This document shows, piece after piece, positions 28,359 to 52,588 of a stretch of DNA of 56,080 bases. Below the pieces are notes generated by a model. That model was not told the origin of the DNA, did no database searches, and was given only the letters and a program-made list of their open reading frames with translations. A program made the translations under genes and the position numbers. The DNA comes from Lentisphaerota bacterium. GTDB lineage: Bacteria > Verrucomicrobiota > Lentisphaeria > Victivallales > Victivallaceae. The DNA lies in contig SUWK01000010.1 of NCBI GenBank assembly GCA_015061525.1, positions 1 to 56,080 on the forward strand, read 5' to 3'. Position 1 is the first letter of the stretch, and each line of letters begins with the position of its first letter.

Positions 28359-29708
28359 TTAAGCTATTCTTCCCGTGCGAATCAATTCTTTGAAGAATTT
28401 GGCACTGAGTTTGGGAATGCGTTCCAAAGTCCGATAATTGACAAATGTCAAGCCGAAACGACGGCGGTAGCCAGAACCCCATTCCAGATTATCCAAAAAG
28501 CTCCAATGTAAATAACCAGTAATCGGAATGCCATCGCGAATAGCGCGGCTCATCGATTCCAGATATGATCGCAAATATTTAATACGGAAAATGTCATAAA
28601 CCTCACCGTCGGCAGCAGGCAGATCCATATTGGAAAGTCCGTTTTCAGAAATAATGATCTCTTTGGGCTTCCACAATTCGTTGATGATACGGCAGCCCCA
28701 GTAAATCACCGCAGGCTGGAATATTACACTGCATTCAGGTAATTCAGAAGATGTATCGAAATTGAATATTTCGTATTTCTTTTCCGATTCAGGGGCATAT
28801 CGGACCAATTTGCCGTAATAAATATTCAATCCGAGGAAGTCCATTGGCGCAGAGATCAGTTTGAAATCACCATCCTGAACAATCGGAGCATCGGCACCCT
28901 CTGCTTCAAGATAAGAGTCTGGATATCCCCCCTCCATAATAGCAGTCAGAAAATGTCCGTTGACCTCGCGGAAAGCCCGTTTTGCCGCATCAACGTGTTC
29001 AGGGGTATCCAGCACAGGGGTGAAAAATACGGGATTCTCTGCGAGGCTGACTCTGGCATCTGGCACGATATCACGCAAAACCTGCAAGCCCATCCCGTGA
29101 GCCAGAAGCATATTATGACGAACTTGATTGTGTTCCTTTTTGCTTAAACGCAAACCAGGAGCGCAAATGCCATTCAGATAGCCTTGATCGACACAGCCGA
29201 GAAGTTCGTTGACGGTGAAAAAGTTTTTGCAGCGTCCTTCCAGGGCTTTGGCAGTTTCCGCTACATAATCGGCAAAATACTTGACACACTCTCTTGATTG
29301 CCAACCGCCGTATTTCTGTTGCAGAGCTAACGGAAGATCCCAGTGATAAAAGGTGATATAAGGTTCAATACCGTTTGCCAGCAGCTCATCACACAGGCGT
29401 TTATAATAATCGATCCCTTTGGGATTCATTTTGCCAGTTCCTTCCGGGAAAATACGGCTCCACGCCAAACTGAAACGGTACGCATCAAAACCGATATCGC
29501 GCATAATTGCCACATCGCGTTTATACAGATGATACTGATCACAGGCGACATCTCCTGTTCCGTTATCCATAATGGCGGTGTGACCTTTTTCAAATTCATT
29601 CCAGATAGACGGACCTTTGCCATCTTCAAAGGCGGCACCTTCCACCTGATAACTGGAAGTTGCAGAACCCCAAATAAAATTTTCTGGAAAATCTCTTCTC
29701 GTATTCAC
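28359..29708 (-). CDS. Family 1 glycoside hydrolase (beta-glucosidase-like)
   Basis: 449 residues, full length for GH1. FIWGSATSSYQVEGAAFEDG is the N-terminal signature. The acid/base is Glu168 in TVNELLG, where most members have TxNEP; the nucleophile is Glu355 in IISENG. YLHWSFLDNLEW is the usual C-terminal aglycone-site motif. No signal peptide, so it acts on imported beta-glycosides in the cytoplasm. Last gene of a minus-strand run of carbohydrate enzymes, with AAGGATA before the start. Confidence 0.92.
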   Translation of the reverse strand: MNTRRDFPENFIWGSATSSYQVEGAAFEDGKGPSIWNEFEKGHTAIMDNGTGDVACDQYHLYKRDVAIMRDIGFDAYRFSLAWSRIFPEGTGKMNPKGIDYYKRLCDELLANGIEPYITFYHWDLPLALQQKYGGWQSRECVKYFADYVAETAKALEGRCKNFFTVNELLGCVDQGYLNGICAPGLRLSKKEHNQVRHNMLLAHGMGLQVLRDIVPDARVSLAENPVFFTPVLDTPEHVDAAKRAFREVNGHFLTAIMEGGYPDSYLEAEGADAPIVQDGDFKLISAPMDFLGLNIYYGKLVRYAPESEKKYEIFNFDTSSELPECSVIFQPAVIYWGCRIINELWKPKEIIISENGLSNMDLPAADGEVYDIFRIKYLRSYLESMSRAIRDGIPITGYLHWSFLDNLEWGSGYRRRFGLTFVNYRTLERIPKLSAKFFKELIRTGRIA

Positions 29709-29818: not shown

Positions 29819-32113
29819 TCACCCTTCTTCTTTGATTTTGTGAAGCAGACAGCATATAAAACTCTGAAATCCGTGACAGCAGCTGGCATAAGGCTGCTTA
29901 TGTTCCCACAATGTGCCTGTCAGTTTTGCCATTTTAAGGCAATACTCTTTGATAGTTTCTGCCGCCAGATCCTTCTGTCCAGTCTGAATGAGCAATTCAA
30001 GCCGCATAATCGCTCCCATAAACATATTGACAGGGTAAACTTTTTCCCATTTTTTTTCTGTATCACGCTGCGTGCCGAAATCACCCACCAGGCAATGCCA
30101 CAATGCCGAATGAGTTTCAACTGTTGCTGTACCGAAATAAAAAGCATAATACTGACACACTTCTGTGGTGTCGGGAAGAATATTCAAAGTCCCATCCTCT
30201 TTTCTTTCAGCGTGATCCCTGAAAAATTGACCGTCAAAAGATTGTTCCAGAATAGTTTGACGCATTGTCTGTGCGCGCTCATTCCATTCGGGGATGTTAT
30301 AGAGTTCTGCCATAACTTCCAAAGTGCGGGCATAGAGCATATTGATCGGATAATTGACATCTTGCACAAAACAATTAGCTTTGCTCCATTCCACAAAAAC
30401 CCAGCTCGGGAGTTTTTCAAGCAAACCGTCTGAATTCTGAAAACGATCAATGTAGTCGATAAAGGCAAAGACTTTTTTGCGGAAATCCTCTGCCATACAA
30501 CGATCATTGGAGCGTTGTGCATATTCGCCCAGTTGCAGTAAAAGCCACATTCCCCAGTTGGGAATGAATTCTCCCGTTGTGTGATCACCAGGATATTCCA
30601 TCGGGAAAATAGCTTCTGGAATCCCAGGACAGGGCGGAGCGAGAAGAAAATTTTCCAGAAAGCACTTTTCCGCAATGGTTGAGCCTGTCAGAAAAAATGA
30701 AGCTCTGGCAATAAAAAAAGCATCAGTCAGCCAGCCAGCCCGTTCCCGAGATGGACAATCTGTAAACAGATCAACGGCATTAGCAGCAAAACTTTGCAAT
30801 CCAGCGCGGTAAATTTTTTTCAAATCCTTATCCAGTTTGGGCGATGGCGGATACAGTTTGAGCGGATTTTTATATTCCCTGAGTGAAAAATCCAGAATTT
30901 CTGCCTTTCCGCTATGCATAAAAACTTCTGCAAATTTCAATGTGCCTGGTTCGATGGTCTCCAAATCATATTCACCAGGTTCCAGTAAATCGAAAAACAC
31001 ACCTCCTGTCATATAGAGGCGCAGAGGATTCACCCCGCCATCGGGAGATTCCAATTCATCATAAAGGACGACCAACCGTCCAGGCTGATGACAGACGACA
31101 CGGATTTTAATAAAACCAGTATTGTCAGTTTTGCCTCGGTAAAGAGTTGAAATGATCGTTCCGTTATCATCGAGTCTGTATCGCGGGATCTCGGAATATG
31201 CGTTGACTTCAAGTTCCTGCTCTGGGAAACCCTTGTATCCCTCTTTTCCAGCGAGCGTAACAGAACGGTCCATTTTCGCGAGTGGTTCATTGACATAGGA
31301 ACGGCGCAAAGTTTTTACAGGCTGGAAACTTTTATCGATTTTATATTTCGGTTCATGCATCCGTGATGGAAGAAAATTCACTGGCGGACAGATCTCCAAC
31401 TCCAACGGATTAAGGTTTTTGCGTTCCACTCTCATTCGGTATGCTTCAAAAAACAATCGTTGATAGCTGTATCGGGAAACTTTTTGAATTCGTTCATTTG
31501 AGAGATCAAATGCCAAAAAATTCCGTCCAGTTGCCGCAAGGATGCGATTGCCGCAGCGAACTTCCGCTTGCAGAAAACTGGGTTGATCCATAAAGTCAAA
31601 GCTGTTGATATTTGCTCCTGAAACTTCGATTTCAAGCCTGTTTTCTCCCGAGTGAACAGCCAGCGGCAATTCAGATATGCGAAAATATCCTTTGGGACCG
31701 CGCATAGGACCGTGAGAGATAAATTGTCCATTCAATTTTACCCGAAAATAGGTTGAACCTGTAATTTTCAGAAATATCTTATCTTTGTATTCCGCGGGGA
31801 AACAGGTTGAGAAAAGAACAAAATCATTCATTTTTTCACGACGTCCACGCGGCCAGACTGGAAGTGCTTCTGCAAAAGATTCTTGCCCAGCAGGAATCAA
31901 GAGGTTTTCTGGCTGGATATCCAATATATCTGCCATTTTACGGATCGTATCTGTATTGGGGATCAAGCCGTCTTCTTCTGCTCTCCTCTGTGCGACCTGG
32001 CTGATATTCACCAAAGCAGCAAAATTTGACGGTGAAAAAGAAGAATCCGTTTTTGCTTTTTCACTGCGGAACCGGCGAAGCAGATCCCCAAATTTTTTTG
32101 ATTCAGAAACCAT
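29819..32113 (-). CDS. HTH domain fused to GH78-like alpha-L-rhamnosidase
   Basis: 764 residues. Residues ~7-73 look like an XRE-type helix-turn-helix (FGDLLRRFRSEK, FAALVNISQVAQRRAEEDGL, TIRKMADILDIQPENLL). A rhamnosidase-like N-terminal beta domain starts near 87 (WPRGRREKMNDFVLF), and the (alpha/alpha)6 catalytic domain carries DCPSRERAGW at 452-461, the GH78 signature with the general-acid region. The ATG has AAGGAG seven bases upstream, so the HTH belongs to the translated protein. No signal peptide. A DNA-binding domain on a glycosidase is very unusual; it may be a substrate-sensing regulator or a moonlighting enzyme. It lies 67 bases after the DUF4838 gene. Confidence 0.82.
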   Translation of the reverse strand: MVSESKKFGDLLRRFRSEKAKTDSSFSPSNFAALVNISQVAQRRAEEDGLIPNTDTIRKMADILDIQPENLLIPAGQESFAEALPVWPRGRREKMNDFVLFSTCFPAEYKDKIFLKITGSTYFRVKLNGQFISHGPMRGPKGYFRISELPLAVHSGENRLEIEVSGANINSFDFMDQPSFLQAEVRCGNRILAATGRNFLAFDLSNERIQKVSRYSYQRLFFEAYRMRVERKNLNPLELEICPPVNFLPSRMHEPKYKIDKSFQPVKTLRRSYVNEPLAKMDRSVTLAGKEGYKGFPEQELEVNAYSEIPRYRLDDNGTIISTLYRGKTDNTGFIKIRVVCHQPGRLVVLYDELESPDGGVNPLRLYMTGGVFFDLLEPGEYDLETIEPGTLKFAEVFMHSGKAEILDFSLREYKNPLKLYPPSPKLDKDLKKIYRAGLQSFAANAVDLFTDCPSRERAGWLTDAFFIARASFFLTGSTIAEKCFLENFLLAPPCPGIPEAIFPMEYPGDHTTGEFIPNWGMWLLLQLGEYAQRSNDRCMAEDFRKKVFAFIDYIDRFQNSDGLLEKLPSWVFVEWSKANCFVQDVNYPINMLYARTLEVMAELYNIPEWNERAQTMRQTILEQSFDGQFFRDHAERKEDGTLNILPDTTEVCQYYAFYFGTATVETHSALWHCLVGDFGTQRDTEKKWEKVYPVNMFMGAIMRLELLIQTGQKDLAAETIKEYCLKMAKLTGTLWEHKQPYASCCHGFQSFICCLLHKIKEEG

Positions 32114-32180
32114 ATATTTTCTCCTTAGATTAAAAATTTATTGCCTCATTTTTGTGTGAAACATCTATGCTGACGATGGA

Positions 32181-34157
32181 TTATCGCATATTTTTGTATC
32201 GGGAGAGAGGAAATTTTTTCCAGTGCCGATCTTCCAAAAAACGGGCGTGTCCGACATTGATCGCTCCGAGATGTTCAATGGAAGCACGATAGGCATCCAA
32301 TTTGATAACTGCTTCATCAAAGGATTTTTCGGAGGCGTTTTCTCTGTTCTTGCTGAGTGCTTCCTGATATTTACGGCATTCCATTTGAGCTGCCATAATC
32401 AGGCGGATGTGTTCTAATGCGATCCGCAGATGTTTGATTCGTTCAGCAGAAGCGGCATCCAAATCAGGGGCAGAGGCGGCCTCGTCCAGCAAACGGGCAG
32501 ATTTTGCCATTACTTCTGGCGTGAAAATATTGTCGGCGATCAAAAGCAGATTCCACTGCAATTCGCCGCCTTCATTGTTTCTGTTCTGTGCAAACGGATT
32601 TTTGAAAGGCGTTTTCATCGTGATACGGGTCAGGTATTCAAAATACTCTTTTACTTTCTCCTTTCCTGCACCGAATGCAGAGTAGAACTCATCTTTCAGG
32701 AGTTCCAGCGGGATATCACGGTCGTGATTGAGGGTCGCGATAACATAGTTGACCAATCCCTGCGCGCCAGGATGTCCAGCATATGAGTCCATATCTACGG
32801 CAACCATACTGCGTTTGGCAGAGAATGTGTAGACATCGTAGAATTCTTCGTGATATTGAATCGGAAAACAGTTGCCATCCAGTGTAAAGTTGGGGCGAAA
32901 CTGCAATGTCGCACCAGTTTTTGCCCAACCAGCCCATATATCTTTGTAACTTTTGACTTTGGCGGGATTCCATGGATACATAATCGGCGGACAGAAACGC
33001 AGATGGATGCGGTCATTGAGCTTGATCTTATCTGTTGGCGGCGCACTGTAATTGGAATAGATCAAACCAGCGATTTGAGGATTTTTCACTCCCTGCTTTT
33101 CAGCTTCTTTCTGAACTGCGAGATAGAATTGGCAATATCGGTCAGAAAGAGTTCCAAGAGCTTCGCTTTCCCAGCCCATCTTTTTCTGTGCAAAGAGTTC
33201 TTTGGCTTTTTTCAGGCGTTCTTCATCGGGAATCGGCGAGTTATCCGCTTTCAGGCAGTTGGCACAGACGCATTCACCGCCAGTGTCATTTTCATTGACA
33301 TTTATCATTCGGTCTCTACTGCCTTTCATAAATTCACGCACGATGTGTTTTATCAGAGATTCAGAAGTGACACACATACTGACATCTCTGGGATAACCAT
33401 AACTCCACATATATGGATTCGGTCTGCGGGTCCCATCTGGCAAAAGGCTGAAAAATTCTGGATGGGTTTTGCCGTATTCATTAAAGTATTTTCCGAAAGC
33501 GTGACCGTTTGAATAGATACTGCGGTGGTTGAAACGGTGACGCAGCAGCCACTTTGCCTGATCGTCAAAGAACTTTTTGCGATTTTCGGCAGAAGACCAG
33601 TGAAATTTACCATCAGTAATACGCCACATACTGGATTTGAGTTTAGCTTGAACTTTTACGATGCCTTCTTTTAAGGAAAGATTTTTATGTTTCGGAATGA
33701 TTTCCCCAGTTTTTCCAGGCCAGATCCAACGGATACCGATCTTTTTTTCCAAAAATTCATAAGTTGCATACAATGTGCCAATGCTGTTATTGGAATCATA
33801 AAGTTTGCCGCTGCCGTCTTTACCGACGATTTTGATATCACTCTTGCCGATTTCGATGATCCCTGAATCAAGAGCCATTTCATCTGACTTGAATTTCTGA
33901 TTTGCCCGACAGCTTCCCAGATAGATATAGGATTTATCCTGCTGAACATCTGTCTCTTTTATGATCGGCAGTTTCTCGCTGGCTGCCATCTCCAAATGGC
34001 AGGATATCTCTTGTGCCGCATATTCTACGGTGGGATATGCTTTTTCGGGAATGACAATCCCTGAAACGGTCAATTTACCGTTTTTTATCAGCTCCATTGC
34101 CGACAATGTGTCGGTGAACAATATCGGCAACAGAAAAACGAATAATAAATTTTTCAT
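32181..34157 (-). CDS. Secreted DUF4838 protein, putative glycosidase
   Basis: 658 residues with a signal peptide (MKNLLFVFLLPILFTDTLSA). The N-terminal ~130 residues (VEYAAQEISCHLEMAASEKLPII, YIYLGS) resemble the alpha-glucuronidase-like N-terminal domain found before DUF4838; the central part has NVNENDTGGECVCANCLKAD and GLIYSNYSAPP, typical of DUF4838. These are predicted TIM-barrel glycosidases of polysaccharide-degrading Lentisphaerota, Planctomycetes and Bacteroidetes; the substrate is not known to me. It lies 21 bases after the next secreted enzyme gene. Confidence 0.75.
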   Translation of the reverse strand: MKNLLFVFLLPILFTDTLSAMELIKNGKLTVSGIVIPEKAYPTVEYAAQEISCHLEMAASEKLPIIKETDVQQDKSYIYLGSCRANQKFKSDEMALDSGIIEIGKSDIKIVGKDGSGKLYDSNNSIGTLYATYEFLEKKIGIRWIWPGKTGEIIPKHKNLSLKEGIVKVQAKLKSSMWRITDGKFHWSSAENRKKFFDDQAKWLLRHRFNHRSIYSNGHAFGKYFNEYGKTHPEFFSLLPDGTRRPNPYMWSYGYPRDVSMCVTSESLIKHIVREFMKGSRDRMINVNENDTGGECVCANCLKADNSPIPDEERLKKAKELFAQKKMGWESEALGTLSDRYCQFYLAVQKEAEKQGVKNPQIAGLIYSNYSAPPTDKIKLNDRIHLRFCPPIMYPWNPAKVKSYKDIWAGWAKTGATLQFRPNFTLDGNCFPIQYHEEFYDVYTFSAKRSMVAVDMDSYAGHPGAQGLVNYVIATLNHDRDIPLELLKDEFYSAFGAGKEKVKEYFEYLTRITMKTPFKNPFAQNRNNEGGELQWNLLLIADNIFTPEVMAKSARLLDEAASAPDLDAASAERIKHLRIALEHIRLIMAAQMECRKYQEALSKNRENASEKSFDEAVIKLDAYRASIEHLGAINVGHARFLEDRHWKKFPLSRYKNMR

Positions 34158-37658: not shown

Positions 37659-38243
37659 ATGAGAGTTGCAATTTACGGCAGAGTTTCAACTATTGGCAAA
37701 GGTCAAGATGTGGAAAATCAAGCAAGGTTATTGAGAGAATATTGCTCTGATAATAATTTTGAAATCGTTGCTGAAATAACGGAAAATATCAGCGGTGGAA
37801 AAAAAGCCGATGAAAGAAAAGGTATGAAAGAATTATTTTCTCTCTGCCATCGCAAAAAAGTTGATATGGTGTTGTTCTTTGCACTCGATCGGCTCTCTCG
37901 CCGTGGTGTGCGTGATACGCTTGATATTCTGAGCTATTTCGACGGTTGCGGTGTAAAATGGCACTCATATTCTGAACCATACCTCAGCACCGCTTGCGGT
38001 GGTGTGTTCTCGGAAGCTCTGATCTCCATTCTCGCCGCCCTTGCCAAACAAGAAAAGCAGAGAATTTCTGAGAGAGTTACCGCCGCATTGGCAAAGAAAA
38101 AAGCCCAGGGGGTTAAGCTCGGTCGCCCCATTACCGCAGATAAAGAAAAGGTTATTGAACTGCGGAACAATGGTCTTTCACTTGCGGCGATTGCCAAAGA
38201 ATTAAACATAAGCAAAAGCAGAGTTTTTCAGCTGTGTAATTAA
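37659..38243 (+). CDS. Small serine recombinase (resolvase/invertase)
   Basis: 194 residues. The N-terminal catalytic domain has YGRVS with Ser10 as nucleophile, LFFALDRLSRRG with the conserved Arg pair, and the E-helix LAALAKQEKQRISERV. LGRPI leads into a C-terminal helix-turn-helix (ELRNNGLSLAAIAKELNISKSRVFQL). Full length for the Tn3-resolvase/Hin type. AGGAGG precedes the ATG. It contains no TAG and ends in TAA. In this element it may resolve dimers or invert a segment, separate from integration by the large recombinase. Confidence 0.92.
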   Translation: MRVAIYGRVSTIGKGQDVENQARLLREYCSDNNFEIVAEITENISGGKKADERKGMKELFSLCHRKKVDMVLFFALDRLSRRGVRDTLDILSYFDGCGVKWHSYSEPYLSTACGGVFSEALISILAALAKQEKQRISERVTAALAKKKAQGVKLGRPITADKEKVIELRNNGLSLAAIAKELNISKSRVFQLCN

Positions 38244-38252
38244 ATTAAAAAT

Positions 38253-38274
38253 GGCACGCCTAAAACGGCGTGCC
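38253..38274 (-). terminator. Terminator of the amber-codon operon
   Basis: Perfect stem GGCACGCC / GGCGTGCC with a six-base loop; on the minus strand it is followed by ATTTTTAA. It separates the convergent resolvase from the recoded genes. Confidence 0.75.
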
Positions 38275-38287
38275 GTATGCGAAAAAA

Positions 38288-38641
38288 TCAAAGGTAAAAA
38301 AGCTACTCTATGATCTTATTTATTTTATGTTTATAGTGCTATGTTTCGGCGGTTGAATTGGAAAAATTCAAGCAGTATAACCAAAACTAATAATCGAACC
38401 ATATTTTTAAAAATTCGCTCTTATATAGAACTTTATATTTCTTGCATATTTTGCTATTTTTTCGCTCCATGCAATATCTCTGAATGTCGGTCAATGTTCC
38501 GAAATCATAGTGCAAATAACCGTCAGCCGTAACGAACACGCCGAAATACTATTGATCGGTTATACTCGGATTGTTAATGTAGAATATACGGCTCTTGCGG
38601 AACTCTGCACGCATAGCATAAACTTTATCTCTCAAGCTCAT
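38288..38641 (-). CDS. Small gene with in-frame TAG codons (ORF2 of the recoded operon)
   Basis: From the ATG at 38641 (GGAGG upstream, start overlapping the previous gene's region by TGATATG) the frame reads MSLRDKVYAMRAEFRKSRIF, then TAG at codon 31 followed at once by YFGVFVTADGYLHYDFGTLT. Further TAGs lie at codons 85, 101 and 113, and the first TGA is at 38288-38290; no TAA occurs. In the standard code the product would stop after 30 residues. The part after codon 31 is clearly protein-like; beyond codon 85 it is less certain. No family recognised. A terminator hairpin follows. Confidence 0.55.
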
Positions 38642-38642
38642 A

Positions 38643-38843
38643 TCAACGCCCTCCGATAATAGACAAAACATATTTACGGCGGTCGAACATAGCCTCCGCA
38701 GCTCTCAGTGCTTCGCCGTATGACCCCGCCTATAATTCAATGCTGAATGTTGCATAACCGCCTTGCTTCGGCGTGCATAAAATCTTGTATTTTTTCGCCG
38801 TTAATTCGTGAGCAATACGGCGTAATTCATTAGTGATATTCAT
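38643..38843 (-). CDS. Small gene with one in-frame TAG (ORF1 of the recoded operon)
   Basis: 66 residues if codon 38 (TAG, 38730-38732) is read as an amino acid. Before it: KILCTPKQGGYATFSIEL; after it: AGSYGEALRAAEAMFDRRKY, which reads as a normal beta-strand-then-helix continuation. It ends in TGA. GGAG lies about ten bases before the ATG. The next gene's ATG follows one base after the stop. Function unknown. Truncation at the TAG would leave 37 residues. Confidence 0.6.
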
Positions 38844-38994
38844 ATAATTTTTCTCCAATTTGATTTTTTCATTTATTAAAAAAAATAAAAAATTTTATCG
38901 GTCGGCGGCAGATAATTTCACCGCCGTATAGAAATAACTTCTTTTATGCGGAATTATCGCATAATATCAAGTTCAATTCCTATATATAAAGGAA

Positions 38995-40224
38995 TTAATG
39001 CACCTTTATTTCTCCATTAAAAAGCATTTTATATGCGTAAATCATTACGTCTTTCAGCTATTCTTTATATCGCTTATCGACAATGAAACTGTCATGTATT
39101 GGCAAGCATGGCACGCCCTTCGCCGTAAAATGTGAAACAACATTGACGGCGATTCTTGCGTCGTAATTCTGCAATTTAATTCCTATACCGCTCCCGAAAC
39201 AATCAGCAATCGGCGTGTGATATTGTTTCGCCGCCGCTATGATCGGCTTAAAATCAAGTGTGTTTTTATACTCTTTTTCCAATGCTTTCAATGCGGAATA
39301 TTCCGTCTCTGCGTTAATCAATACAAGTATTGTTTTTTTTGCAATATTGCGGTTGAAATCAAAAGAATATGGATCTGATAATAGTTCAATATTACGCTGT
39401 GCATAAAGCATTGATAGGTGCAAAGTTGAGAAATCAAGCTCGACGGTATCAGCAAGGTTTATTTGTATTTTCGCACGTTCCTATTTGCCTAATTGCTGAT
39501 AGCTTATTCCCCTATATGGAATACAGTATAAGCGTCCGCCGTCATTGAATGAATTATTATTGTATATCGCCGTCAATCGTGGAAATAATCGTGTTGTAGT
39601 TCTATCGGAATTTAGCACTGTTCTGAAATCAAACTGCTAATACAATTTATTGGTTAATTCCAATTTATTTCTCAGTATTTTTGTTTCAGAATTGCCCTTG
39701 AAATTCACTCTGTTTTTATTTTGATCTTTCATAATAATTTCTTTTTCTTTTGCGGTGCAAATGTCGGAGAAATCAAGAGTATTGAATTGAGAATATAACG
39801 ACGGCAACGCCCAATATTTACTTGTTTTTCCTTTGGTATTATCGCCGAACGCTTTATATCCTTTTTTCTCTGCAATATATTTTTTCTCTGTCAAGAAATC
39901 AACGCAAAAAATAAAAATATCGTAAGAAATTAGAGAAAAAGCAAAGTTGTTATGATCGGAATAATAGCTTTTTGTTCTCGGAATTGATACGCATTTATTC
40001 GTGCGAAAAGCAACAAAAAAATTGCAAAGTAATGTTTTTAGGTAATCACGAACTTTGTATTGTGATTTTTTTGAAAAACTCTGAAAGATATTCTATCTCT
40101 ATATTTCAGCAATAATTTTTTCAGAAATTGATTTTATTTCTGAATGATCTGAAAATTTGTAAAAGTCAAATTTCATGCTCTAATCAAATAAATGTAGATC
40201 GGAAAAAAGTTCCTAATATTTCAT
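38995..40224 (-). CDS. Family-A-polymerase-like protein read through seven TAG codons
   Basis: A 409-codon frame from an ATG with AAGGAG at the right distance to a TAA at 38995. It contains TAG at codons 4, 15, 42, 44, 196, 248 and 389, and no TAA or TGA; I checked the frame codon by codon through the N-terminal third. The last 200 residues have palm-like motifs in polymerase-A order: VELDFSTLHLSMLYA (motif A), RNIAKKTILVLINAETEYSA (like the O helix) and CLPIHDSFIV (motif C, HDS for HDE). In context Gln fits every TAG (for example AEI-x-R-x-NIF and KRYKE-x-LKDV). Likely the element's replication protein. In the standard code it would be three residues long. A decayed gene is the alternative. 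Confidence 0.7.
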
Positions 40225-40260
40225 TTTTTACTCCTTAAATTTTTTCGCATTGATACTATT

Positions 40261-40288
40261 AATATAACATACTTTTAAAAAAAATCAA
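40261..40288 (-). promoter_or_regulatory. Promoter of the polymerase-like gene
   Basis: On the minus strand: TTGATT (40288-40283), 16 bp, TATATT (40266-40261), 37 bases before the ATG; nearly the same as the promoter of the large recombinase at 43019-43046, including the T-run after the -35. Confidence 0.75.
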
Positions 40289-40360
40289 CATATATTATTA
40301 GGAATATAGTAGTATAGTATATATCGGTCTATTACCATTATACGAACTTTTTTATATCGT

Positions 40361-40386
40361 TTTTATTGCTCAGCTGAGCAATAAAA
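40361..40386. terminator. Perfect 26-bp palindrome with T/A flanks
   Basis: TTTTATTGCTCAG and its exact reverse complement are joined without a loop, with A/T runs outside. It could end transcripts in either direction or bind a dimeric protein in the divergent control region. Confidence 0.5.
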
Positions 40387-40413
40387 AAAGTCGGAAATTC
40401 CTAAATTATCAGA

Positions 40414-40442
40414 TTGATTTTTCGCCGTCGGCGTGGTATAGT
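40414..40442 (+). promoter_or_regulatory. Rightward promoter of the element's control region
   Basis: TTGATT, 17 bp, TATAGT. It would start a transcript near 40449 that runs through the large inverted repeat into the nuclease gene. The spacer contains CGCCG/CGGCG, a small palindrome. Confidence 0.6.
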
Positions 40443-40517
40443 ATAACAATGTTCAACTTAATGGAGGTTGCGAACTGATTTTTATAGAATGATGATATAA
40501 CGTTACTTATTGAGGGT

Positions 40518-40640
40518 CACGTCCGAACTACCACAATACAGCCGTCGCCCCTATACACAGCTAATCTCGATATGTGCCGTGTGCATACACGGTGCATTTC
40601 GTTGTGTATTAGCTGTGGAGCTGTGGTAGGCTCGGACGTG
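40518..40640. repeat. Large nested inverted repeat (possible origin, res site or structured leader)
   Basis: Outer arms CACGTCCGA-ACTACCACA (40518 on) and TGTGGTAG-TCGGACGTG (ending 40640), middle arms CACAGCTAAT (40556-40565) and ATTAGCTGTG (40608-40617), and an inner hairpin CCGTGT GCAT ACACGG near 40578-40593. No gene inside. It lies between the polymerase-like gene and the nuclease, so a replication origin is plausible; a recombination site or an RNA switch are alternatives. Confidence 0.65.
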
Positions 40641-40678
40641 GTACATTCGGAATGCACCTCTTTTTTTTACGGCACGGC

Positions 40679-41155
40679 ATGAAAACAGCACTCTATATTA
40701 TACTCTTATTTTTTCCTGTTCAGCTCATTTTTTCAGCTGAAATAATCGGTGAAGTTGTCGGCGTGAGCGACGGCGACACTATTACTATTATTGACACTAC
40801 CAACCGCCGTTATCGCATACGCCTGGATCGGATCGACGCGCCAGAACGCCGACAGCCATTCGGCAAAAAATCGAAACAATATTTATCCGCTCTGATATTC
40901 GGAAAACAAGTCAGAATTGAATACGGCAAAAAAGATCGTTATGATAGAATATTAGGCATTGTTTTTCTTGGCGAAAAAGAAATCAACTTGGTTATGGTGC
41001 AGCACGGCATGGCGTGGCACTATTCATACTATGATAAGACGGAATGTTACGCCGCCGCCGAACGTGAAGCTCGGCGTAAAAAAATAGGTTTATGGAGCGA
41101 TCCGAACCCCGTAAACCCATACGATTTTAGGAAACGCAAAAGAACGCAAAAATAA
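40679..41155 (+). CDS. Secreted thermonuclease-family (SNase) protein
   Basis: 158 residues from the ATG at 40679, which begins a signal peptide (MKTALYIILLFFPVQLIFSA); an in-frame ATG at 40652 would add nine residues in front. Neither has a clear ribosome site. EVVGVSDGDTITII and RIRLDRIDAPERRQPFGKKS are the SNase signature with calcium-binding Asp and catalytic Arg; YGKKDRYDRILGIV is the second motif, with D where the catalytic Glu usually lies. Such nucleases are frequent on conjugative and integrative elements. It contains no TAG and ends in TAA. Confidence 0.82.
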   Translation: MKTALYIILLFFPVQLIFSAEIIGEVVGVSDGDTITIIDTTNRRYRIRLDRIDAPERRQPFGKKSKQYLSALIFGKQVRIEYGKKDRYDRILGIVFLGEKEINLVMVQHGMAWHYSYYDKTECYAAAEREARRKKIGLWSDPNPVNPYDFRKRKRTQK

Positions 41156-41227
41156 GCCATTCTGGCGGCGATCAACGATAATGCAATTAGTTTATACCCA
41201 TTGCCATTTATCGCCGTTATACGGCGG

Positions 41228-42991
41228 TTATTGGCGAAATAATCGTATGCAATAAGTCGGTGTATCAAGTAACGTTTCAGCCTTTTTATTCCTAAATTCT
41301 TGAATTGGTTTATCAACACAATAAAAATTAATAAATGTGAAAAATTCTTTATCAAGAAATCGGCTGTCATCGTAATCACTCTTTACCATTGGTGCGTTAG
41401 TAACTTCGATCCACGGCAACACCTTTTGACCTCTTTTATTTATCATAATTCGTGGTATTGTGAACTGATTGCCATCGGTAAGGTGTATCGTAATAGCATT
41501 GTCAGAAACAATAATTTCTTTAATTGTTTCTTCTAAAAGTCGCTTATAATCATGTTCTTGCAACTTCATCAAGTTTTGAATTTGAAAAAAATCTTGTTCT
41601 ATTTTTTCTCGCAATTCAGAGTAATTTTTTTCCTTTTGAGTTTTAATTTCTTCAAGCTCATTTTTCAAGCGGTTTATTTCTTTGTTTAATTCGTCAATCA
41701 TTGGGCGTATAAGCTCGATATCTTCAATATTTTTTGCAAGTTTGAATTTCACCTCTTTTTCTGTGTTTTTTTGATCGATTTGTGCTTTTATTTCGTCCTC
41801 ATGGCTGTCGATATTTTTTATGTCAATCAACTGTTTTCTGCTCTTTATGCAATTGACAATAAAAAGTCCTTGCAAAGTAGTATATAATGATTGATTATGG
41901 AAATTATAATTAGTTCTAATTCTCAACGTATGTGAACCATCATTTATACAGCGATATACAATTCCATTATCAAACGAAACAGTTAATTTTCTTCCGCATT
42001 CACACCGCAAAAAACCGCTAAAAGGCAAAAAGTGACGTTGCTTGTTTTCCTTCAAATTGTATTTTTGATAACCATGTTTTTTTTCTGCCATTTTACGTTG
42101 AACCTCGATATATTCTGAATACGTTATAGGGGGATTGTCAACATTTCTTGCTTTGCATAAATCACCGTCAGTATTTCGCATATATCCACAATATATTGGA
42201 TTGGTTAATATGTGAATAATATTTGTTCCGTAAAACTGTTTTGCCTTACGCCTAATCCCCTTAAATGTATAGTATGGTATGAGGTGTTTATATTTTTGAT
42301 TTATTCTGTGTAATATTTCAGAATATGAACGTCCTTCTAATACGGCAGTATATATGTATTTTATCATTTCGGCGTATTTGGGATCAAACGTAATTCGCCG
42401 ATTTTTACTCAGTGTTCCAAACGCTGTTGTTACGGCGAGAAAAGAATTTTTACGTTTTTCAATACTCTGTATTGACGTTACTTTTTTTCGGTGTAAACTC
42501 TCATATTCGATTGCGTCACGAAATGATTTCATTATTTGCTGCATTCTGTCGGTGAAATCAAACGTAGAATTATTGTATGCTTCCGCAATAGAACATCGGT
42601 TATTAAGCAAAAATAAAGTAATGTAATTACCTAAGTTGGAATTTCTTGCATTACGGTATATGCGGTCTGTATCATGGCATACAATATAGTCTATTTTATT
42701 GTGTTCGATACAATCGAAAGCACGCCCTAATTCCTCTTTGTATTCTTTACGATTGGGAGTGCGTTGCTCCTTTTTCCACTCTTGAAAACCATCATCGTAT
42801 ATAGCACGTTCAATGCCTTGCTCTGTTAGCGGATACAGTTCACTCGATGTATTATAATCGCAGTATTCGCCGATTATGGTAATATTATTTTTTTCGCAAT
42901 ATGCCCGACACGTTTCCAACTGTCCCTCAATGGAAAGACTTTCATTTTCACTGCCGAAACTTTGTCGGCAATATATTACGGCTGTTTTCAT
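41228..42991 (-). CDS. Large serine recombinase (putative element integrase)
   Basis: 587 residues. The catalytic domain begins AVIYCRQS with Ser11 as nucleophile, with DYIVCHDTDRIYRN later; a recombinase domain follows (NPIYCGYMRN), then a zinc-ribbon-like segment (LRCECGRKL) and a long coiled coil (~420-500, EINRLKNELEEIKTQKEK). This is the plan of phage/ICE-type serine integrases. It starts 79 bp from the right end of the element and reads inward from a promoter partly inside the end repeat. AAGGAG precedes the ATG. No TAG inside; it ends in TAA. The sequence between the catalytic and zinc segments looks intact. Confidence 0.92.
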   Translation of the reverse strand: MKTAVIYCRQSFGSENESLSIEGQLETCRAYCEKNNITIIGEYCDYNTSSELYPLTEQGIERAIYDDGFQEWKKEQRTPNRKEYKEELGRAFDCIEHNKIDYIVCHDTDRIYRNARNSNLGNYITLFLLNNRCSIAEAYNNSTFDFTDRMQQIMKSFRDAIEYESLHRKKVTSIQSIEKRKNSFLAVTTAFGTLSKNRRITFDPKYAEMIKYIYTAVLEGRSYSEILHRINQKYKHLIPYYTFKGIRRKAKQFYGTNIIHILTNPIYCGYMRNTDGDLCKARNVDNPPITYSEYIEVQRKMAEKKHGYQKYNLKENKQRHFLPFSGFLRCECGRKLTVSFDNGIVYRCINDGSHTLRIRTNYNFHNQSLYTTLQGLFIVNCIKSRKQLIDIKNIDSHEDEIKAQIDQKNTEKEVKFKLAKNIEDIELIRPMIDELNKEINRLKNELEEIKTQKEKNYSELREKIEQDFFQIQNLMKLQEHDYKRLLEETIKEIIVSDNAITIHLTDGNQFTIPRIMINKRGQKVLPWIEVTNAPMVKSDYDDSRFLDKEFFTFINFYCVDKPIQEFRNKKAETLLDTPTYCIRLFRQ

Positions 42992-43653: not shown

Positions 43654-44484
43654 TCATTTGCAATCTTTTGGGGAAAAACCGAAATGTTTTTTAAATGTTT
43701 TTGAAAAATAAGCTGGATCGGAAAATCCGCATTGCGCTGCACAATCAGAAAGATTATAAGTTTTTTCCCGCAAAAGCTGATATGCCGCCTGCATACGAAT
43801 GGCTCGCAGATATTCGCAGAAAGATAGTTCACTGGCGTGGCGAAACGCCCGAATCAAAGTGGAACGGCTGACTTTCATTTGATTTGCAACATATTCAATA
43901 CCGATATTTTCTGAATAATGGCTGCATATATAACTTTGAGCGTCATAGACCATCTTGGTAAAGGTGTTTTTTTCTTCTCCTGTACAGGATATAGTGTTTT
44001 TTTGTTCCGAAAAAACATTTCTCCACGCAATACTGAGCAGATGTGCCAGACTTGCTTCAGCAACATAAATATCCTCAGGGTGTTCATATTCGTTTAACCG
44101 CAACATATCAAACAGCAGAAGAATTTGATGCTTATCTGTTGGCCGTACCGTTTTTAAACAATCTGGTGCGGCGTGGGCAAAAAATTTATCAGCCGTTTTC
44201 CATTTGAATTTGATGGTAAAAATTTCCAATCCTTTGGTTACTTTGAAAATATCTTTATGCTTTACTCCGCTGGGAATAAAAAGCGTATCATTTTTTCCCG
44301 CAGGATATTCTTTTCCCGATTCCAGATGTAGAACCATCGAACCGTTGATTATATGGCACACCTCATTGTTGGCATCAAGATGGAAATTATCCGAATATTT
44401 CATCGGAACATACAATCTTGACAGATGAAAAATTTTCGGCATAGCGACGGGATTTTTTGTGAATTTATTCAGTCTGTAATACAT
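43654..44484 (-). CDS. AraC-family transcriptional regulator
   Basis: 276 residues. An N-terminal cupin-like sensor half (FHLDANNEVCHIINGSMVLHLESGKEYP, LFIPSGVKH) and a C-terminal double helix-turn-helix (~180-276: IGIEYVANQMKVSRSTLIRAFRHA, then LSDCAAQCGFSDPAYFSKTFKKHFGFSP). It probably senses a sugar and controls the flanking hydrolase genes. Same strand as the prepilin and GH genes. AGGAAAG lies ~11 bases before the ATG. Confidence 0.9.
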   Translation of the reverse strand: MYYRLNKFTKNPVAMPKIFHLSRLYVPMKYSDNFHLDANNEVCHIINGSMVLHLESGKEYPAGKNDTLFIPSGVKHKDIFKVTKGLEIFTIKFKWKTADKFFAHAAPDCLKTVRPTDKHQILLLFDMLRLNEYEHPEDIYVAEASLAHLLSIAWRNVFSEQKNTISCTGEEKNTFTKMVYDAQSYICSHYSENIGIEYVANQMKVSRSTLIRAFRHASELSFCEYLRAIRMQAAYQLLREKTYNLSDCAAQCGFSDPAYFSKTFKKHFGFSPKDCK

Positions 44485-50186: not shown

Positions 50187-50264
50187 TTTTCTTACACTAT
50201 GCGCTTAAAATATCGCCACAGCTAGGACATTTTGCGTCCAAGCGGCGAAAAGTTATTAACAATT
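50187..50264. repeat. ~78 bp direct repeat, copy 1, at the end of the ftsK-like gene
   Basis: Begins TTTTCTTACACTA, contains an imperfect hairpin (GCTAGGAC ... GTCCAAGC) and ends CGAAAAGTTATTAACAA. The TTA inside the last word supplies the stop codon of the minus-strand fusion gene. The partner copy is at 52589-52665. Confidence 0.8.
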
Positions 50265-52526
50265 TAATTTTTCGTTTGTCCGCACTTGTGGATTTGTGTC
50301 TATGATATGTTTTACACAACTTTTTATTTCATCATAAGCTGCATATGCCCCTTGTACACGCTCGATTTCCATGCTGGAACTGGTCATGACCAACATATCC
50401 CCCATTCCAAGCAACTTTTCTGCACCGGGGGTATCCAGCACCACCCGACTGTCAACCAGACTGCGTACCTGGAAGCACAACCGGGTCGGCAAATTAGCTT
50501 TGATAACACCGGTAATGATATTGGTACTGGGACGCTGGGTGGCAACAATAATGTGGATTCCGGCAGCACGGCCTTTCTGGGCAATACGGGTAATGTTGGT
50601 TTCCACATCTTTTTTGGCCTCGGTCATCATCAGGTCAGCAAGCTCGTCCAGAATGATTACCAGCAATGGCATTTTTGCCGGAATAACATTGCCGTCATCA
50701 TCATATTCCGGTTCAGCCGGAACCGGACGGCTGTTGAATTCGGAAAGTTTTTTCACTCCAACTTTTGCCAGCACATGATAACGGCGATCCATCTCATTTG
50801 CCGCCCAACGCAAAGCGATCGGCACCTTGGCGGAATCATTGATGATGGGAGTCCACAAATGCGGCAATTTGCTAAAAGTTTTGTAATTTGGGTGAGATGG
50901 ATCAAATATGAGCAGATGCAACTCATCCGGATTGAATTTAAAAAGCAAACTCATAATAAAAGTATCAATGCACACACGTTTACCGGTACCGGTAGCTCCT
51001 GCCACCAGTATATGCGGAGCTTTGGCAAGGTCAAGAATAACCGGTTTCCCGGAAACATTTTTGCCGAGTGCAAGCGGGATCTCCGCTTTGCTGTTGCGCC
51101 ACTCATCGCTCTCCATTATTGAACGCATGAATACCGCTTCTGGTTTGCTGTTGGAAACCTCGATACCAACCACAGAACGCCCGGGTATCGGTGCCAATAC
51201 CCGGATACTGGTGGCGGCAAGAGCCATACGGATATTGTCCTGGATCTGCTCAACCTTTTTAACATTGATTCCCGGAGCCAGAGTTATTTCATAACGGGTT
51301 ACCCGGGGACCGGAAACAAAACCGGTAACCCGGCCGGAAATCGCAAACTCTTCCAATGTCTGCTGGATTTTACTCCGGGCAAGTTCGATCTTATCGCTGT
51401 CCTCACCCAGAGTGCATTGAGCATCTGCAAGATTGTTCAACGGGAAATTTCCGGATGCAGGAGAAGTTTTTTCTGCGTCACTCTGAATTTCGTATCCGGA
51501 AAAAAATTTATCGATTTCCTCGCTTTCGAGAGTAATCTTCTCCAGGAGAAGTTCTGCCAGAGCAGCAACGCATTCCTGGTGTTCAGTAAGTAATTCGGTA
51601 CATTTTTTTTCTGCCTCACGGGATATGTCATTGACATCTGCTTCCAGCTTGGAATGGATGTAATTATCAGAAGCGATCAAGCCAATGCGTTTTCCCATAC
51701 CAAAATGTCGTACCATATTCAGTATAGCATTTGTAGCAAGAGTCAAATCATGTTCGCAACCGTTTGACATTTCACCGAAAAATATTCTTTCAGCAACACA
51801 TCCGCCGTATTGTGAAGCAACCTGACTTTTCATAGCGGTTTCAGTATAGATACGATCAGGATCATCCCCATGTTCCACACGTCCGAAACAGTAATGGTTC
51901 GGATCTATGGTGATAAGCTTCGGCGGTACGATTTCAGGCAGAAAGAACAAACATACCGCATGTCCGGCTTCATGGATCGCAATTCGATGACGGTATTCAT
52001 CTGAAAGGATCATCGGTTTATCTGCGCAGCAGCTGTCGTCTATCGAAAAAGTTTCCAATTCGCGCTCGACCTGTTTCCGTTTGCGGAAGTACCGCAGCAG
52101 CCACAGCGGGTATTGATAAATTGCTTTTCCCGCCGCCCACGAAACAGCCCACAGCCATAATCCGATACCCCCAAGCACAATTGCTATATATGTGCAAATT
52201 GCAAATGTCTCTTTACCTTCAGCATATATTCTTGAAACTGCGAGAATCATCGAACCGTAAAAAATCCACCCCGCCCAAACTGCAGTTTTCAGAAGAAATC
52301 CTTCCAACAGGAAAAATGCTGCGACCAATGAGAGGATCAAGCCTACCCAAATAAAACCGATACTGCACATATATATACCGGAGGCCCAAAAGAGAATACT
52401 TGTAAGTCTCAGCAAAAACTTGCCGTAATACAGTCTGCTGATCTGTTTCAAGTCAAGTGTCTGCAGGTAGTCGTAGTCAGCTGCGGAAACAGTTCTGGTC
52501 GGGCGGGGAGTCTCATTTTCTGCCAT
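50256..52526 (-). CDS. Membrane M41 (FtsH-type) protease domain fused to an FtsK/SpoIIIE motor
   Basis: 756 residues from the ATG at 52526 (AAGGAC upstream). Residues ~40-130 form about four membrane helices. Residues ~175-340 are an M41 peptidase domain without its AAA module: HEAGH at 185-189, AERIFFG (~246-252) and CEHDLTLATNAILNMV with third ligand Asp260. Residues ~375-740 are FtsK alpha and beta domains: RYEITLAPG, Walker A GATGTGKR (510-517; Ser/Thr after Lys replaced by Arg), Walker B LVIILDELAD, GIHIIVATQRPS and GAEKLLGMGDML. The DNA-reading gamma domain is missing. The frame ends inside a repeat, so the C-terminus may be cut short. Architecture new to me. Confidence 0.85.
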   Translation of the reverse strand: MAENETPRPTRTVSAADYDYLQTLDLKQISRLYYGKFLLRLTSILFWASGIYMCSIGFIWVGLILSLVAAFFLLEGFLLKTAVWAGWIFYGSMILAVSRIYAEGKETFAICTYIAIVLGGIGLWLWAVSWAAGKAIYQYPLWLLRYFRKRKQVERELETFSIDDSCCADKPMILSDEYRHRIAIHEAGHAVCLFFLPEIVPPKLITIDPNHYCFGRVEHGDDPDRIYTETAMKSQVASQYGGCVAERIFFGEMSNGCEHDLTLATNAILNMVRHFGMGKRIGLIASDNYIHSKLEADVNDISREAEKKCTELLTEHQECVAALAELLLEKITLESEEIDKFFSGYEIQSDAEKTSPASGNFPLNNLADAQCTLGEDSDKIELARSKIQQTLEEFAISGRVTGFVSGPRVTRYEITLAPGINVKKVEQIQDNIRMALAATSIRVLAPIPGRSVVGIEVSNSKPEAVFMRSIMESDEWRNSKAEIPLALGKNVSGKPVILDLAKAPHILVAGATGTGKRVCIDTFIMSLLFKFNPDELHLLIFDPSHPNYKTFSKLPHLWTPIINDSAKVPIALRWAANEMDRRYHVLAKVGVKKLSEFNSRPVPAEPEYDDDGNVIPAKMPLLVIILDELADLMMTEAKKDVETNITRIAQKGRAAGIHIIVATQRPSTNIITGVIKANLPTRLCFQVRSLVDSRVVLDTPGAEKLLGMGDMLVMTSSSMEIERVQGAYAAYDEIKSCVKHIIDTNPQVRTNEKLNC

Positions 52527-52588
52527 AATAATTGTCCTTTCATTTACGATGTATTGGTTTCTACTGAACAAACTGCGATAAAAAACGC

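Follow-up and report, generated by a model that had tools for sequence, protein, structure and literature searches.

The window, a 56,080-nucleotide stretch of DNA from a Lentisphaerota bacterium, carries a gene in which an XRE helix-turn-helix (HTH) is fused to a GH78-like enzyme. The fusion is real, rare and of single origin. As the preliminary description of the window had claimed, the HTH is in frame with a full GH78-like protein: both parts lie in a single 764-aa frame and both appear in the predicted structure. That description had also taken the AAGGAG site before the ATG as a sign that the HTH is translated, and the site indeed stands 7 bases from the ATG. Its limits for the HTH, residues ~7-73, come close to the domain found here (residues 1 to ~76), and the DCPSRERAGW that it reported is present at residues 452-461. 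The features discussed below are as follows.

29819-32113, minus strand: fused gene, XRE HTH plus GH78-like (alpha-L-rhamnosidase fold) enzyme; 764 aa, one frame, ATG start
32121-32126, minus strand: Shine-Dalgarno-like AAGGAG of the fused gene, 7 bases upstream of the ATG, between it and the DUF4838 gene
31886-32113, minus strand: XRE HTH domain, residues 1-76, from stand-alone XRE relatives, structure prediction and Foldseek
31883-31900, minus strand: linker predicted with low confidence (residues 72-77, pLDDT under 50), at the place where unfused homologues begin
29822-31879, minus strand: GH78-like enzyme, residues 79-764, with N-terminal beta domains and a helical (6-hairpin) catalytic domain
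30722-30760, minus strand: catalytic segment, residues 452-464, DCPSRERAGWLTD; D452, E457 and D464 align with D567, E572 and D579 of BsRhaB (2okx)
29903-29905, minus strand: E737 (in GTLWEH), aligned with E841 of BsRhaB
28359-29708, minus strand: downstream neighbour, a GH1 family beta-glucosidase
32181-34157, minus strand: upstream neighbour, a DUF4838 protein

The two parts of the fused protein

The absence of the N-terminal segment from nearly all homologues would be consistent with an assembly or start-codon error, where the HTH is a separate gene or translation begins further in. However, the identical architecture is found in an independent metagenome-assembled genome of another species (MAG RGIG9948, from yak rectum, here G136), on a 76.7-kb contig (JAGCNI010000009.1), which argues against an assembly error; the two fused proteins share 77% identity over 761 residues, with no internal indel. 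Moreover, a clear Shine-Dalgarno precedes the first ATG, while the in-frame ATG at residue 60 lacks such a site and there is no start codon near residue 79 of the fused gene, where homologues begin. Given the second genome and the one clear Shine-Dalgarno, an artefact of assembly or start choice was rejected as highly improbable.

Structure prediction, which the preliminary description had proposed as a check, confirmed in models that the N-terminal segment is an XRE helix-turn-helix. An AlphaFold model of residues 1-79 with 11 relatives has five helices (residues 4-22, 28-34, 39-48, 54-63 and 69-72, the third being the recognition helix) and a mean pLDDT of 86. The same five helices appear in the full-length model, whose alignment contained just one other fused sequence; there, pLDDT in blocks of ten runs from ~60 to 85, breaks at residues 72-77 and is followed by a confident enzyme. 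Top Foldseek matches of the HTH model are XRE-type regulators with probability 1.00 and E-values of 0.002 and above, values this high being usual for so short a domain, and they include SinR, ImmR (7t8i), C.BclI, P22 c2 and the N-terminal domain of CapH. Prediction and Foldseek thus agree on the five-helix XRE/Cro-C1 fold, with helices 2-3 as the HTH.

The HTH and enzyme parts were aligned separately. Pfam HTH_31 matches weakly, with E=0.26 for the whole protein and 0.0078 for residues 1-97, both below the curated cut-off, and the isolated window domain scores 16.9 bits against a cut-off of 27, short of the curated XRE model. The G136 copy likewise scores 20.2 with HTH_3 against a cut-off of 23. 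Scored with a profile built on stand-alone XRE proteins of the same class, one row of which (L078) was short and wrongly extracted, the window HTH reaches 52.9 bits and the G136 HTH 50.5 bits. The window HTH also matches transcriptional regulators in PHROGs (E=5.6e-4).

For the enzyme part, Pfam Bac_rhamnosid6H (PF17389) matches residues 428-663 above the cut-off (E=4.9e-14). The best Foldseek match of the whole model is BsRhaB (2okx, E=4.5e-26), and the top matches (2okx, 3cih, 6i60, 6gsz, 3w5n and 4xhc) are all rhamnosidases, which identifies the 6-hairpin catalytic domain. A HMMER alignment of the family to 2okx places the four acids D452, E457, D464 and E737 on D567, E572, D579 and E841, the catalytic acids of BsRhaB, although the E737/E841 match falls in a low-scoring third stretch of the alignment. 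The preliminary description had suggested checking the conservation of the catalytic acids, and all four are invariant across 26 homologues. According to PMC4690510, the catalytic-acid position of BsRhaB is occupied by a Glu. The enzyme part therefore looks active from its retained residues, and activity is expected; since all four acids are retained, a dead-enzyme sensor was rejected in its simple form. By family the enzyme would be an alpha-L-rhamnosidase, but its clade is divergent and may use a different sugar.

Origin of the fusion

Relatives of the source genome are Lentisphaeria/Victivallaceae MAGs, many of them from animal guts. Among the 80 best relatives of the protein in GTDB genomes, with N-termini judged by eye, no further HTH fusion was seen; their N-termini are mostly signal-peptide, lipoprotein-like or twin-arginine-like, with some short cytoplasmic starts. 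No signal peptide was found in the 764-aa fused protein. The nearest unfused homologues, of the same genus and 56-59% identical, begin near residue 79. A tree of 26 sequences groups the two fused proteins as a clade (100/100) nested in a clade of eight (100/100), whose remaining six members are unfused, lack signals and start just before the enzyme. These six clade-mates around the fused pair suggest, most simply, a single gain of the HTH, within a clade already without a signal peptide. The preliminary description had taken homologues without the N-terminal 85 residues as evidence against the HTH. Nearly all homologues are of that kind, and yet the HTH is real, because it would have been gained late.

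The nearest relatives of the HTH are stand-alone XRE proteins of Lentisphaeria, about 121-147 aa long and 28-39% identical. When 387 genomes of the phylum were searched with the XRE profile, the strong stand-alone relatives lay in frames 121-223 residues long, and the window HTH alone lay in a long frame. In five of six stand-alone loci, a gene encoding HExxH adjoins the XRE gene, following it. In one such pair that was tested, this gene is a Peptidase_M78 scoring as CapP and its XRE partner scores as CapH (PADLOC). XRE-COG2856 pairs are described as mobile stress-response regulators, in which ImmR is cleaved by ImmA (PMC2701414). Judged by sequence relationship, the HTH derives from CapH/ImmR-like XRE regulators. 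While it is homologous to the HTH of these regulators, which are paired with M78 (IrrE/ImmA/CapP-like) peptidases, the fusion keeps just the first ~76 residues, joined to the enzyme, and has neither the C-terminal part nor the peptidase partner; no M78 gene was found among the scanned neighbours of the window and G136 fused genes. At the G136 junction, XRE-like sequence runs to ..ALAEK and enzyme-like sequence starts from DSFAVAVPVW.

A separate observation concerns a recurring Lentisphaeria set (L094, L095, L096, L098 and partly L099) of an XRE regulator, an M78/HExxH peptidase, and proteins of ~390 aa and ~330 aa. Neither of the last two proteins is matched by Pfam or PADLOC in L094, and the set resembles CapH-CapP-like regulation of an unknown system.

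The CysS proteins of G136 and the window genome are 61% identical, compared with 80% for the fused enzyme part. This difference, based on one housekeeping protein, suggests that the fused gene probably moved horizontally between gut Lentisphaeria. No relative was found in viral contigs, and plasmids gave only a weak match, to the enzyme domain.

Selection on the HTH and its possible functions

Comparison of the window and G136 copies indicates that the HTH is under purifying selection, much weaker than that on the enzyme. The HTH has a pN of 0.297, whereas other stretches of 76 codons average 0.114 and do not exceed 0.169. Its pN/pS is 0.63 versus 0.195 for the enzyme, and its changes fall near-evenly over the codon positions (24, 26 and 27). 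These figures would fit a chance fusion whose tolerated HTH supplies the start codon and decays under weak constraint, as would the changes at core and recognition-helix positions and the existence of just two known fused copies. However, neutral drift was rejected: in simulations without selection, 0 of 400 runs reached the observed HTH identity of 52.6% at a divergence of 0.7-1.1, where 18-29% is expected (at 0.5, 4 of 400 did), and the two copies are free of indels. A strict neutral passenger is thereby rejected. With the XRE fold still confidently predicted and the fusion having persisted in two families of the order, a decaying leftover is unlikely.

The recognition helix is among the most diverged parts of the HTH and departs from the stand-alone XRE consensus. 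It is identical at 4 of 10 positions between the two copies, versus 7 of 9 in the flanking turns; elsewhere, identity is 2/9 in the last helix, 9/19 in the first helix and 3/4 to 4/5 in loops and turns. In helix 3, the window copy has Gln42 at a position where 9 of 10 stand-alone relatives, and also G136, have Leu. The fold thus appears to be kept, while nothing points to a conserved operator; the specificity may have been retuned after transfer, or DNA binding may have been lost.

The preliminary description had proposed that the protein could link the binding of substrate by its hydrolase fold to control of the cluster, and this was not supported. Housekeeping genes surround the G136 fused gene, and there is no further glycosidase in its vicinity. 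Upstream of the two fused genes, operator-like inverted repeats did not clearly exceed chance, and the two regions have no 9-mer in common. Given the missing repeat, the absence of a glycosidase cluster around the G136 copy and the poorly matching recognition helix, control of the cluster is unsupported. The window fused gene has no neighbours in common with the G136 copy or with six unfused homologues, and a regulator of a conserved sugar cluster is accordingly unsupported as well.

Two other loci in the window may be recorded here. The stretch at 37659-42991 is AT-rich (GC about 0.35-0.41) and resembles a mobile element; it contains a serine resolvase and a large recombinase and lies between the glycosidase genes and an AraC-type regulator (43654-44484). 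One open reading frame at 50256-52571 (minus strand) matches Peptidase_M41 (188-355) together with FtsK alpha and FtsK/SpoIIIE (388-682).

The preferred reading, held tentatively and at somewhat less than even probability, is a trigger enzyme of local scope that regulates itself locally and does not act as a cluster regulator. In a single event, a cytoplasmic, catalytically competent GH78-like glycosidase would have acquired its N-terminal XRE domain from a CapH/ImmR-like repressor. Because the fused protein lacks a signal peptide and is nested in a signal-less clade, it should meet DNA. It would hydrolyse a terminal alpha-linked sugar in the cytoplasm, by family an alpha-L-rhamnoside. The fused protein may dimerise, as several GH78 enzymes are homodimers (PMC4690510). 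Its paired HTHs could then bind a site near the protein's own promoter, and enzyme level, perhaps with substrate occupancy, would feed back on expression of the fused gene. Consistent with a trigger enzyme are the fusion in two assemblies, the predicted XRE fold, the selection on the HTH and the invariant catalytic acids; the high pN of the HTH, the diverged recognition helix, the lack of an upstream repeat or 9-mer and the unconserved neighbours argue against it.

Alternatively, the XRE domain may serve structure or oligomerisation in an otherwise ordinary cytoplasmic glycosidase, operator recognition having been lost. This explanation is somewhat unlikely. It would account for a segment held by selection while its recognition helix drifts, and for an operator search that found none. 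Methylphosphonate synthase (6b9s) is also among the Foldseek matches of the HTH model, and the HTHs of this enzyme and of hydroxypropylphosphonic acid epoxidase (HPPE) are not known to be regulatory. The HPPE dimer has been compared with XRE regulator dimers (PMC3406030). However, the unfused homologues at 56-59% identity do without the domain, and the linker is predicted to be flexible, which does not point to a tight structural role. A stronger version of regulation, where the glycoside hydrolase is a one-component transcription factor and substrate occupancy of its active GH78 site switches DNA binding by the captured HTH, is quite unlikely.

Known enzymes with DNA-binding folds

The closest enzyme of known structure, BsRhaB of Bacillus sp. 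GL1 (PDB 2okx), has the same fold and aligned catalytic acids; it lacks the HTH and is 13% identical to the window protein in structural alignment. PutA and BirA, like the window protein, unite an intact enzyme with a DNA-binding fold in a single polypeptide, and both are described as enzyme-repressors (PMC6978683). While regulation has been shown for these two proteins, the window protein, a glycoside hydrolase with an XRE-type HTH, is known by architecture, and its likeness to trigger enzymes is one of architecture only. HTH-enzyme fusions are thus already known, and the combination of XRE with a GH78-like enzyme is a variant of them. In hydroxypropylphosphonic acid epoxidase and methylphosphonate synthase, an XRE fold also precedes the enzyme; these differ in enzyme class, and the window fusion is represented by just two HTH-bearing members of a large enzyme family. 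In a partial literature collection, no relevant paper was found on GH78 with an HTH or on a trigger-enzyme glycoside hydrolase.

The same genome contains a possible second HTH-enzyme fusion (L045; G000:C21, about 70634-70786, minus strand). In its frame of at least 577 aa, the translation, read by eye, has an XRE-like domain, a cupin-like region and an AMP-binding (acyl-CoA synthetase-like) enzyme.

Should the HTH of the fused protein be functional, a glycosidase would sense its substrate and regulate its own gene with no additional sensor, and the differing recognition helices of the two natural copies would make a test direct. If it is not functional, the fusion would show how a metabolic enzyme can acquire, and keep, a repressor domain that came from a mobile CapH/ImmR-like cassette, a caution against inferring regulation from domain architecture alone.
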